Below are positions 36,501-61,556 of a DNA stretch of 64,000 nt, in pieces. The stretch is taken from assembly GCF_900099965.1 (NCBI RefSeq), contig NZ_FNDJ01000007.1, forward strand, positions 342,995 through 406,994. The letters are read 5' to 3'. Positions within the stretch are counted from its first letter, which is position 1, and each line of letters starts with the position of its first letter. The notes beneath the pieces were generated by a model. That model had not been told where the DNA came from and did no database searches. It saw nothing but the letters and a program-made list of their open reading frames with translations. This DNA is from Nonomuraea jiangxiensis (GTDB lineage Bacteria; Actinomycetota; Actinomycetes; Streptosporangiales; Streptosporangiaceae). The position numbers were made by a program, and so were the translations under genes.

Positions 36501-36597
36501 GAGATGGCTCCCCGATTGGCTCCCATCGACTTCCAGACATGAGGAAAGGGCCTCCGGACTACGCCGAAGACCCTGCTCACCTGCATCTTCTTGGTGG
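36501..36597. repeat. Repeat copy B beside tRNA-Ala
   Basis: About 97 bases shared at ~90% identity with 22961-23057. This copy sits between the integrase remnant and tRNA-Ala and includes the tRNA terminator and CCA end. Confidence 0.75.
36548..36573 (-). terminator. Terminator of tRNA-Ala
   Basis: On the minus strand GGGTCTTCGG pairs with CCGGAGGCCC (10 bp with G-U pairs) around a 6-nt loop, followed by TTTCCTC, 19 bases past the tRNA CCA end. Confidence 0.75.
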
Positions 36598-49323: not shown

Positions 49324-49396
49324 GCCTCCGTAGCTCAGGGGATAGAGCACCGCTCTCCTAAAGCGGGTGCCGCAGGTTCGAATCCTGCCGGGGGCA
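49324..49396 (+). tRNA. tRNA-Arg (CCT)
   Basis: Acceptor GCCTCCG/CGGGGGC, D-arm around AGCTCAGGGGATAGAGC, anticodon stem CCGCT/AGCGG with loop CTCCTAA (anticodon CCT), and T-arm CGCAG GTTCGAATC CTGC. CCA is not encoded. Its 3' half, from the anticodon stem-loop onward, is duplicated at 60749. This tRNA is therefore the attachment site of the island to its right. Confidence 0.96.
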
Positions 49397-50150
49397 CTCA
49401 CCTGGATAGGCATTTCAGGCCACTGACCTGCGGTTTCTCAGCCGCAGGTCTTTTGTTTTGTGGCCCTTGATAGGCAGCCGACGGTGCCCGCACGCAGCCG
49501 TAAGACCATGATCAGGGGACATACACGGGATGATCTTAACCACGTTTCCCCAGGTCAAACCGTGATTCTGGGCCATCCGGGTGTCAGCGGCCCGCTACGA
49601 ACGCCCGGGGTACCGGACAACGACTGCCGCTGATCGTGCCAAATATGTGCGTATAACCCAAGCTTCACCCCGCCCCGGCCGTCGCAGTTGAGGACGTCGG
49701 CTCTCCTCGTGCCCTGGCCAGGCAGGGCTTAGATGCTGGCGGCGCGGCGTTCTCAGTACAGTGTCGGGGTGGCAGGTGAGCTGCGAGTGGACAGCTGGAT
49801 CTGGTCGGTACGGCTCACCAAGACTCGTTCGATCGCGTCCGACGCCCGCCGAGGCGGTCACGTCCGGGTCAACGGGATGCGGGTCAAGCCCGCGCACGCC
49901 GTACGGGCTACGAGGTCCGGCTGCAGCGCGAGGGACGCGAACGCATCGTGGACGTCTCCCGCACCATCACCAAGCGCGTCGGAACCGCCCGTCTTAGCCG
50001 CCGAGTGCTACGCGTCGACAAGCGCCCTCCGCCCCCTCCTCACGAGGAGACCGTGACAGTGACCGTCCGAGCTCGTGGCGCGGGCCGCCCCACCAAACGC
50101 GAACGCCGCAGCATCGACAAGCTGCCCGCACACCCGATGATGGAGCGGCA
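49352..50150 (+). repeat. Island direct repeat, left copy (attL-like)
   Basis: About 800 bases, starting exactly at GCTCTCCTAAAG in the tRNA-Arg anticodon region, recur at 60749-61556 with roughly 90-95% identity. The repeat covers the tRNA 3' half, its terminator, a non-coding stretch of ~300 bases and an S4-domain gene. Confidence 0.92.
49425..49460 (+). terminator. Rho-independent terminator of tRNA-Arg
   Basis: GACCTGCGG at 49425-49433 pairs perfectly with CCGCAGGTC at 49442-49450, followed by TTTTGTTTTG. In the right-hand repeat copy (60822-60847) one stem base is changed. Confidence 0.9.
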
Positions 50151-52180: not shown

Positions 52181-54340
52181 ATGACCAATGAGCACCAGCT
52201 CGAACGTGCCGATACGACACAAAACTCCGTCTCCGCAAGTTTTATTGATTGGCTAGAGGGTGACACTGCGGATGCGGCACCGGATATCGGTCTTACGGAA
52301 CTCCCTCCCGTTGCACAAGCCCTCTGCACTCGGCTAAAGAAGGGAAATATCGACCTTCCTTGGATGCTCGAGCGCCTGGTCAGCCACCCCTCAGGTGTAG
52401 CACTCCTGCAGGCTGCCCTACCAGGGTGCTGGGAAGCGGCAATAAGGGCATTTCCTGCGACTCCGAGCCGGAACCCATATAAGTCTCACGGACAGTATGG
52501 ACATGAACGGCATTGTAAAGGTTCGAACGATATCTGCGGCGCTCTTGTCTACGCCACGCTAAGCCTTGCACCGAACCATGACATAGAAACTCTTCATCAT
52601 CTCAACCATGACGATCTGCGCTTTCTTATGGGCGCAGCCCAGTATGATCACAATCTCCTTCGGTACCTTCTGATGTGGGCATCGATACAACCAGAAGACA
52701 ACAGCCGCTGGCGCTGGGAGAACGAGATCCCAAAGTCCTCTATTTGGGGATTCGTATCAGACGGAATCGAGCTAGTGTTCACCGAACACAGCCGAGAGTG
52801 GAATGACGCTCTATGGCAATCTCCCGCCGGCATTGCCCTCGCCGAGGAAATGATCTGCAGTCTTGACATTGCCACTCTCCGTGCTTACGGTCACCGTCTT
52901 CTCGGCACGTATCAAGATTTGCTCGTAGAAGTAGCGAAACTTGATCCGTCCGTGGCTCGAGCTGTAGGCAACGACCGGATGGTGGTTGAGACCTTCCCAA
53001 CCCCTGATTTTTCGACATCCGATTCAGTAGTGGTCGCGGAGGCACTTCCGTTCATTCCGCTAGCGTTCCTCGAGCAACAGACGCTCCAGGCTGGCTGGGC
53101 AGCCGGCCTGAAGTTGCACAGGACAGATCTCCCACGAACTGTGGGATCAGTCGCTCAAGTTTTGGGAAAGAGCCAAAGCGAAGTGGACGGTACAATTCTG
53201 AGCGGCATGGCACTGCTATGGGCCGACCTGCAACAACTAACCGAGTATAAGAGAGACGAATGGAAGCATCGCGACCAGATTCGTGGTGTACATTCACGAC
53301 TGTCGAAGCACCTCGAGTCTTCGCCAGATGCATGGGCAGTATCCGCTCACGAAATACTCAGGCAGGCAGACTCTCTGGACTCGGACCACATTGATCTTCT
53401 CGCCCTTGCAGCGGCCTACCATGCCACTGTTCGCAGAAAGATTGAGGAGATCGCGGTGGACGACTCAGATCGTGCGACGCGCGACCGGGCTCAAGGCATA
53501 CTAGCGCTTATATCTGGCGTCATGTCCCCCAATACAGACCTTCACCGATGGCTCGCCGATAGCGCAGCACGAGCTTTCGATGGCGTGCCACTATTTCCAC
53601 ATCCACTAACATCGCTAGCAAGAACCTGGATAGGTTCGACCGAAGTCGAAGACACAATCTCTCGATCGCTACGTCAAGCTATGGCCCTCTTTAGCGTCTG
53701 GGCCAAGTCGCAGGGTGCGGCCCAAGAGGAGTTGGCAACCGGAGTATTGCTCACAGAGCTCAAAACAGCTTTTCGGAATGTCTCGCTGCGACTTGCTGCT
53801 GGGGGCAATTCACGTCTGGCGCAGACCATCGCCGTCCGTCAGCGCCCAGTTACCAAGACAGAGGAAAGTACATGGGGATGCGATATTGCGCTGCTACTCA
53901 ACGCCGATATCCGGCCCTCTGCTTTCATACGAAGTGCCGAACTCGTTCAGGTGAAGAAATCTGAGGCGTTTGGGGACACCTCGAGCTCTCCGAATGAGAG
54001 ATGGCGCATAGATGTGCAGCAGTTGCTTACGCTCCTCGAGCGGTCGGAGTCATCTAGCTATTGGCTCATCCTCTCCACCGGTGAAGTTCTTTGCGTGACT
54101 GCGCGTTGGATTTTTGGCCTTATCGCCGGCGGAAATGCGCTGGGCCAAAATACCGCTACTGTGAACTACAACGATGTGCGCCATACGGCAGTACTAGTAG
54201 AGCAGTTCATGTCCGAACTATTTCTCGGCATCTGGGTCGGCTCCGTTAATGAGCAGACTCTGAAATTCGCGCGCGGCGAAGACAGCAGCGTGACACCGCG
54301 AAATATCTTTGAGATCGCCATCACTGCAGGAGGCCAATGA
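52181..54340 (+). CDS. Unknown 719-residue protein with Mrr-like nuclease end
   Basis: 719 residues with base and codon use unlike the neighbours: many A/T-ending codons, and lower GC than the flanking genes. No signal peptide or membrane helix. The first ~560 residues are largely helical and of no recognised family (HGQYGHERHCKGSND and NHDIETLHHLNHDDL are notable His-rich points). From ~560 the sequence reads STWGCDIALLLN (Asp568), then AELVQVKKSE (Glu587, Gln590, Lys592, Lys593), then WRIDVQQLL. This D...E-x-x-Q-x-K-K spacing is that of PD-(D/E)xK nucleases of the Mrr restriction-enzyme group. Taken with its place in a tRNA island among nuclease and helicase relics, a defence role is inferred, not shown. 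Alternatives are a DNA-repair or island-maintenance protein. Confidence 0.8.
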   Translation: MTNEHQLERADTTQNSVSASFIDWLEGDTADAAPDIGLTELPPVAQALCTRLKKGNIDLPWMLERLVSHPSGVALLQAALPGCWEAAIRAFPATPSRNPYKSHGQYGHERHCKGSNDICGALVYATLSLAPNHDIETLHHLNHDDLRFLMGAAQYDHNLLRYLLMWASIQPEDNSRWRWENEIPKSSIWGFVSDGIELVFTEHSREWNDALWQSPAGIALAEEMICSLDIATLRAYGHRLLGTYQDLLVEVAKLDPSVARAVGNDRMVVETFPTPDFSTSDSVVVAEALPFIPLAFLEQQTLQAGWAAGLKLHRTDLPRTVGSVAQVLGKSQSEVDGTILSGMALLWADLQQLTEYKRDEWKHRDQIRGVHSRLSKHLESSPDAWAVSAHEILRQADSLDSDHIDLLALAAAYHATVRRKIEEIAVDDSDRATRDRAQGILALISGVMSPNTDLHRWLADSAARAFDGVPLFPHPLTSLARTWIGSTEVEDTISRSLRQAMALFSVWAKSQGAAQEELATGVLLTELKTAFRNVSLRLAAGGNSRLAQTIAVRQRPVTKTEESTWGCDIALLLNADIRPSAFIRSAELVQVKKSEAFGDTSSSPNERWRIDVQQLLTLLERSESSSYWLILSTGEVLCVTARWIFGLIAGGNALGQNTATVNYNDVRHTAVLVEQFMSELFLGIWVGSVNEQTLKFARGEDSSVTPRNIFEIAITAGGQ

Positions 54341-60075: not shown

Positions 60076-60748
60076 GACCCCATGCTATGAACTGCGCCCT
60101 GGCGCCCGAACGGTATGGCCCGCGAACGGGCGCCATGGTTACGCCTGCCGACAATCGCATCCGCCCGGGTCATGACCATGTGGGCTCCTGTCCAAGCTGA
60201 GCCCTCGCGACCGACGGCATCCGAGAAGCGGTCAAATGACGGCAACCCGATCAACTCGGCCCGGAACTGCCTGAGCAGCTTCTCGTCCACCTGATCCGGC
60301 TGCGGCTCCGTGCGCACGTTGATTGCCAGCCAGTCGGACCGTTTGTCGGCGTCCACGGTCGAGAACTCCGCAGCTCGAGATAATCGCGGATCTCCCGGCG
60401 GCGCTGGTCCATCGTCCGGCCCGACCATTCATCCAGGCCCAGCGTGCTACCTAAAACCTTGGTCCGAGGCGGACAGGACCTTCTCTGCAGCCCAATGGGC
60501 GAACCGCCGGGTGATGAGCGGGCACGTCGCTCCTGCTTGGTGTGTCAGGCGACACTTACGTAGGTCGAAGCACCCGCATCTGAAGAGCGGGAACGCCTCG
60601 CGTACCCCTCGCCACGAACATCTTTCTGACCAGGCCAAACAGCAGCTAAGTGATCCACAGTGAGAGGCTACTGCAGATGAGCAGGCGCACATCGACCAGC
60701 ACCCGCATATCACTCATTGCAAGGCATACTGGACTCCATTCAGGTCGA
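60076..60748. other. Degenerate right part of the island
   Basis: No intact gene. A minus-strand piece (EFSTVDADKRSDWLAINVRTE...LLRQFRAELIGLPSF) hints at an unknown decayed gene at 60200-60430. Nothing recognisable as an integrase is found up to the right repeat. Confidence 0.5.
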
Positions 60749-61556
60749 GCTCTCCTAAAGCGGGTGCCGCAGGTTCGAATCCTGCCGGGGGCACTCACCT
60801 AGATAGGCATTTTCGGCCCCTGACCTGCGGTTTCTCAGCAGCAGGTCTTTTGTTTTTGTGGCCCTGGTACGCAGCCGACGGTGCCCGCATGCAGCCGTAA
60901 GACCATGATCAGGGGACATATGCGGGATGATCTTGACCACGTTTCCCCAGGTCAAACCATGATTGTGGGCCATCCGGGTGTCAGCGGCCCGCTACGACCG
61001 CCCGGGGTACCGGACAACGACAGCCGCTGATCGTGCCAAATACGTGCGTCCAATCCGAGCTTCACCCCGCCCCGGCCGTCGCTATTGAGGACGTCGGCAC
61101 CCCTCGTGCCCTGGCCAGGCAAGCCTTGGATGCTGGCGGCGCGGCGTTCTCAGTACAGTGTCGGGGTGGCAGGTGAGCAGCTGAGTGTGCGAGTGGACAG
61201 CTGAATCTGGTCGTACGGCTCACCAAGACTCGTTCGATCGCGTCCGACGCCTGCCGAGGCGGTCACGTCCGGGTCAGCGGGATGCGGGTCAAGCCCGCGC
61301 ACGCCGCGCGGGTCGGAGACGAGGTCCGGCTGCGGCACGAGGGACGCGAACGGCATCGTGGTCGTCTTCTGCTCCATCACCAAGCGCGTCGGCGCTGCCG
61401 TGGCCCCCGAGTGCTACGTCGACAAGAGCCCTCCGCCCCCGCCTCGCGAGAAGACCGTGGCAGTGGCCGTCCGGGCTCATGGCGCGGGGCACCCCACCAA
61501 ACGCGAACGCTGCAGCCTCGACAAGCTGCTCGCACGCCCGATGGCGGAGGGGCGTG
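60749..61556 (+). repeat. Island direct repeat, right copy (attR-like)
   Basis: Matches 49352-50150. It begins inside the anticodon region (GCTCTCCTAAAG), so only the tRNA 3' half is present and no functional tRNA is encoded here. Just upstream the sequence is unrelated to the tRNA 5' half. Confidence 0.92.
61166..61556 (+). pseudogene. S4-domain protein, second decayed copy
   Basis: The start VRVDS is followed by a stop where the left copy has Trp (TGG to TGA near 61203), then by frameshifts. Later pieces are intact in other frames: MRVKPAHAARVGDEVRLRHEGRERH, SITKRVGAAVAPECYVDKSPPPPPREK and GAGHPTKRERCSLDKL. It is non-functional, and its lesions differ from those in the left copy. Confidence 0.85.

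Follow-up and report, generated by a model that had tools for sequence, protein, structure and literature searches.

The question raised by this locus is what a long gene of foreign composition does in an actinomycete island. The gene lies at positions 52181-54340 (forward strand) of the window, by which we mean the whole 64,000-nucleotide stretch of Nonomuraea jiangxiensis DNA that was analysed. As had been claimed in the original prediction, this interval is a single uninterrupted open frame; it encodes a protein of 719 residues (P0001) with a predicted helical N-terminal region followed by a predicted PD-(D/E)xK nuclease domain. The low GC and foreign composition reported earlier were also confirmed. 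GC in the gene stretch was 54-56% compared to 61-79% in the rest of the window, and the GC3 of the frame was 0.55 compared to about 0.7-0.95 for most of the other genes. Because homologues of its protein exist, the 719-residue frame is a real gene, and a foreign one.

The borders of the island, which had been described as tRNA-bounded, could be placed more sharply. A tRNA search identified tRNA-Arg(CCT) at 49324-49397 (+) as the integration site. An ~800-bp direct repeat starts within this tRNA (left copy, 49352-50149, +) and recurs downstream (right copy, 60749-61553, +, which includes the tRNA 3' end), and the two copies are 89.5% identical. Since the repeat starts in the tRNA and recurs downstream, the gene is contained in an 11.4-kb block with a copy of the tRNA 3' end at either side. 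The tRNA-Ala at 36592 does not border the island. Downstream of the same tRNA, related genomes of the genus contain several additional copies of its 3' end spaced tens of kb apart, and in one such genome (G293) the ~180 bp preceding each internal copy match positions 60570-60748 of the window. The tRNA-Arg(CCT) gene is thus a hotspot of repeated integration or accretion in the genus (L047-L050). No integrase was recognized in the window's island, so the hotspot blocks may be mobilized in trans. In G293 a Wadjet type II set (JetA-JetB-JetC; L050, 11866-19069) occupies the same hotspot, immediately after one of the repeat copies, and this counts in favor of a defence function for the gene studied here.

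The last ~240 residues of the protein almost certainly adopt a PD-(D/E)xK nuclease fold, judging from the model and the conserved residues. Alignments, together with a model of residues 515-686, define residues 483-719 (53627-54337, +) as the conserved nuclease domain of the family. The modeled core consists of a helix (516-540), three strands (550-556, 569-577 and 581-593), a second helix (612-621) and a final strand (626-630), which is the helix-strand-strand-strand-helix-strand topology of the superfamily core. The signature residues fall where this topology places them and were invariant in an alignment of 18 family sequences: glutamates E516 and E517 in helix 1 (53726-53731, +), D568 where the second strand begins (53882-53884, +) and Q590 and K592 of the QxK motif, Q590-V-K592-K593, on the third strand (53948-53959, +). 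Q614, in the helix that follows the third strand (54020-54022, +), was likewise found in all 18, and K593 in 17 of them. The aspartate and the QxK residues had been singled out in the original prediction. E587, which had been named with them as a catalytic residue, does not belong to the site, because this position varies between relatives, which carry D, T or I; the helix glutamate is E516/E517 instead.

In structural comparisons the best match to the model of residues 515-686 was the archaeal resolvase Hjc (2wiz; Z 8.5, rmsd 3.1, 117 of 125 residues), followed by RecU (2fco, 1y1o, 5fdk and 1zp7; Z 7.6-8.3), the SSV nuclease D212 (Z 7.5), the SPARDA nuclease (Z 5.6) and PvuII (Z 5.5). A separate model of a Pseudomonas relative gave Z 8.0 with RecU and Z 7.2 with Hjc. 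Our assignment of the fold is based on an alignment Z of about 8 taken with the motif and the topology; a Z of about 8 alone could be due to chance, but the fold was accepted because several nuclease families of one superfamily match and the conserved residues fit it. With Foldseek, searches with whole models returned no E-value below 0.001, and the lists were dominated by helical repeat proteins.

The nuclease fold was therefore predicted correctly at the level of the superfamily, but the proposed membership of the Mrr group did not hold up. Pfam gave no match of the protein to Mrr_cat (PF04471) up to E = 1, and hhalign against 20 Mrr_cat domains returned a probability of 0.3%, compared to 0.4% for the reversed control. 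Because the profile comparison was no better than the reversed control, the domain is placed outside Mrr_cat, though in the same superfamily, and the folds closest to it are those of Hjc and RecU. The (D/E)...QxK site of Mrr_cat is present (D568, Q590-x-K592), and the helix glutamate, the aspartate and QxK follow one another in the same sequence order in both; this site is common to other branches of the superfamily and is not diagnostic. These results bear on the suggestion that the protein is a classical modification-dependent (type IV, Mrr-like) restriction enzyme whose N-terminal region reads modified DNA, which would be a special case of the explanation that we favor below. Some Mrr_cat nucleases have a large N-terminal recognition part. 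The long N-terminal region here could recognize modified DNA, the QxK motif and the spacing of the aspartate are Mrr-like, and no companion methyltransferase gene recurs beside the relatives. Set against this are the failed profile comparison and the lack of Mrr_N or any other modification-reader domain among Pfam matches of the protein, and we regard a type IV enzyme as rather unlikely.

The resemblance to Holliday junction resolvases is one of fold. For Hjc (2wiz, 2wcw, 4tkd), 111-120 residues of the nuclease core can be superposed (Z 7.6-8.5), at a sequence identity of 11-14% to the 719-residue protein, in which the third-strand motif is QxK. Whereas Hjc is a free enzyme of ~125 residues, the domain described here forms the C-terminus of proteins of 500-720 residues that carry a helical region. 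RecU, the bacterial Holliday junction resolvase (2fco, 5fdk, 1zp7), aligns over 126-135 residues (Z 7.6-8.3) but has neither an N-terminal helical region of comparable size nor a defence context; it is a housekeeping enzyme of Firmicutes. A profile search of PDB sequences found no match to the solved members of either group. That the closest folds of the model are those of junction resolvases, not defence proteins, counts against a defence reading. It would agree with a nuclease that serves mobile elements in recombination or repair, that is, a Holliday-junction or branched-DNA resolvase with a helical scaffold that aids replication or integration while defence genes merely travel along with it. 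The distribution and the neighbors of the relatives, considered below, bear on this alternative.

The region preceding the nuclease domain, residues 1-482 (52181-53626, +), is mostly helical according to the model and the alignments, as had been anticipated, and is presumed to be a sensor. Outside the nuclease domain the model is weak (mean pLDDT 56), and because pLDDT is below 50 for residues 84-333 we make no claim about the fold of that segment. The model of residues 132-324 of the Pseudomonas relative is an alpha-solenoid that resembles HEAT/karyopherin repeats with Z up to 10. A karyopherin or importin identity was rejected; helical repeats match widely, and the region is read as alpha-solenoid-like at most. 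Residues ~330-482 could be aligned with the Streptomyces relatives, and residues 1-330 gave no convincing alignment to any group. The length of the N-terminal region also differs between groups, from ~480 residues here to 455 in Gammaproteobacteria, 390 in Sphingobium, 280 in cyanobacteria and 250 in Streptomyces. Streptomyces members (L015-L017, L003-L005) begin with CPxH...CxxC, a possible zinc-binding motif that is lacking in the window protein.

Among relatives, Ka/Ks was 0.27-0.65 in the N-terminal region compared to 0.15-0.43 in the C-terminal region and was higher in the former in 12 of 12 pairs. By this sequence-based measure both the N-terminal region and the nuclease domain are under purifying selection. 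The difference between them would fit a sensor under changing pressure and would also fit simple relaxation.

The N-terminal part had been described as unlike anything known, and the same proved true of the whole protein, which had no match among Pfam, NCBIfam, PADLOC and PHROGs models or PDB sequences. PADLOC 2.0.0 gave no match for it or for five relatives, apart from one hit at chance level. Relatives were gathered from plasmids, IMG/VR prophages and GTDB genomes, and a mixed alignment was required as the query: the single protein matched nothing in genome contigs or viral contigs, and in viral contigs neither a Streptomyces protein nor an actinobacterial alignment gave a match. Plasmids of three Streptomyces strains encode proteins that are 30% identical to the C-terminal 380 residues (E as low as 8e-31), and the last ~240 residues match plasmid proteins of cyanobacteria and enterobacteria. 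Overall, relatives span Actinomycetota, Cyanobacteriota and Alpha- and Gammaproteobacteria (Streptomyces, Tolypothrix/Microchaete, Sphingobium, Klebsiella, Enterobacter, Raoultella, Rahnella, Pseudomonas and Stenotrophomonas), some of them on plasmids and some in prophages. The family is nonetheless rare. When 343 genomes of its taxonomic family were searched with the profile, the only positive was the window's own genome, and this was also the only one among 396 genomes sampled from the phylum; one further genome of the taxonomic family (G027) gave a weak hit (E 5e-4 over 106 residues).

Relatives repeatedly lie next to known defence genes. On Klebsiella and Enterobacter plasmids and in K. 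grimontii, Hachiman HamA-HamB and PD-Lambda-3_B are nearby, and in E. cancerogenus the relative is flanked by Abi (PD-T4-5) and PD-Lambda-4_A upstream and by Lamassu LmuA downstream. The Tolypothrix relative is directly 3' of HmaC in an Hma-like set, that of Streptomyces NBC_00015 is divergent to PDC-S28, and that of Pseudomonas H1h adjoins PDC-M49A. In Pseudomonas ZH-FAD an Ankyrin defence protein lies on one side and an ArdA-like gene, identified by eye, on the other, and the Rahnella relative has as a neighbor an SMC-like ATPase with LmuB/PtuA matches. The Sphingobium relative is preceded by co-directional genes for an AAA ATPase, a helicase and an AbiGi antitoxin, with AbiEii/AbiGii nearby. 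PADLOC matches below 1e-80 were obtained for 8 of 53 neighbor proteins compared to none of the 38 other genes of the window, a control drawn from another genome than most of the neighbors counted; at 1e-15 the control matches belonged to general families (WYL, SspA, DndA and mad2). No PADLOC-recognized neighbor was present at L005, L017 or L025, and L021 is in an ordinary-looking region. Recurrent siting beside known defence genes, a general mark of anti-phage defence genes, is thus a feature of the relatives. The expectation that the gene and its homologues would be found in defence islands was borne out for the relatives, which occur in defence islands, plasmids and prophages, and for the window insofar as its island is an integrated one; PADLOC recognized no other defence gene in the window's own island, which weighs against a defence role.

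The same data weigh on the mobile-element resolvase. Relatives do reside on plasmids and in two prophages (L011, L012), close to a RusA-like resolvase gene in L011 and adjoining UmuC/UmuD-like genes in L012, as might be expected of a nuclease that serves such elements. However, the L011 prophage already has its own RusA-like gene, defence genes are strongly enriched next to the relatives, and the family is absent from the 50,697 phage records searched and from all but a few plasmids, unlike a maintenance gene of the element itself. We consider a resolvase of this kind improbable.

A second alternative is that the protein is an abortive-infection toxin silenced by a partner, such as the AbiGi-like antitoxin present at some loci, and not a self-contained sensor and nuclease. 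On the Sphingobium plasmid pEP2 (L072, 7273-9816) the AbiGi-family antitoxin gene is located 9 bp upstream and in the same direction, in an apparent four-gene operon that includes the AAA ATPase and helicase genes. No such partner was present at the other loci or upstream of the window gene, and a partnered toxin is accordingly given little credence. More generally, no partner gene recurred across independent loci, from which it follows that the gene is likely to be a single-gene unit that works alone, as the original prediction had proposed.

Taken with the neighborhoods, these findings make a defence role for the family very likely. We place at roughly three in four the probability that the gene product is a nuclease that acts on its own against phages or mobile elements and is made up of a helical sensor and a PD-(D/E)xK domain, a reading in which we infer the activity, the substrate, the sensing and the phage target. 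In such a protein the large alpha-helical N-terminal region would restrain or direct a C-terminal PD-(D/E)xK domain of the Hjc/RecU/Mrr-like fold type and would sense a DNA or protein structure associated with the invader. Upon recognition the nuclease would cut DNA, either that of the invader only or all cellular DNA in an abortive response; the chances that it cleaves invader DNA directly seem evenly balanced. We suggest, tentatively, that one conserved nuclease domain is paired with group-specific helical sensors, so that the family may be a broad single-gene immune family in which the effector is re-aimed by exchange of the sensor.

The literature searched yielded no described system with this architecture and no paper naming the accessions of five of the relatives, and the family probably constitutes an undescribed phage defence encoded by one gene. 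It is best read as a new family of an established type of system, the single-protein PD-(D/E)xK defence. The DefensePredictor study (PMC13092281) validated 13 PD-(D/E)xK systems in E. coli, and these resemble the present family in having a nuclease effector domain within an otherwise unknown protein and in their defence context. That screen used E. coli, whereas blastn against 5,426 complete E. coli genomes gave no match to the present family, which may therefore differ from the 13 systems.

Since the family is unnamed in Pfam, NCBIfam, PADLOC and PHROGs, it is missed by defence-annotation tools built on them, and it has been overlooked on IncU-type Klebsiella and Enterobacter plasmids, in Pseudomonas and in actinomycetes. 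Should it prove to be a one-gene defence, it would be simple to clone and test, and the variable N-terminal region would allow the sensed trigger to be addressed by comparing relatives.

Several individual loci have features of their own. Directly upstream of a Pseudomonas relative (L025, 6583-8448) is a gene for a 621-residue product that, by eye, resembles a dsDNA nuclease with a QMKR motif and has no match in Pfam or PADLOC. The copy of Streptomyces pseudogriseolus (L018, 8903-10354) looks broken, its frame being interrupted across the N-terminal and nuclease parts. At three other Streptomyces loci (L004, L015, L016) the next gene after the relative is ~450-610 codons long, and the product of the one at L015 has a Schlafen AlbA_2 domain.
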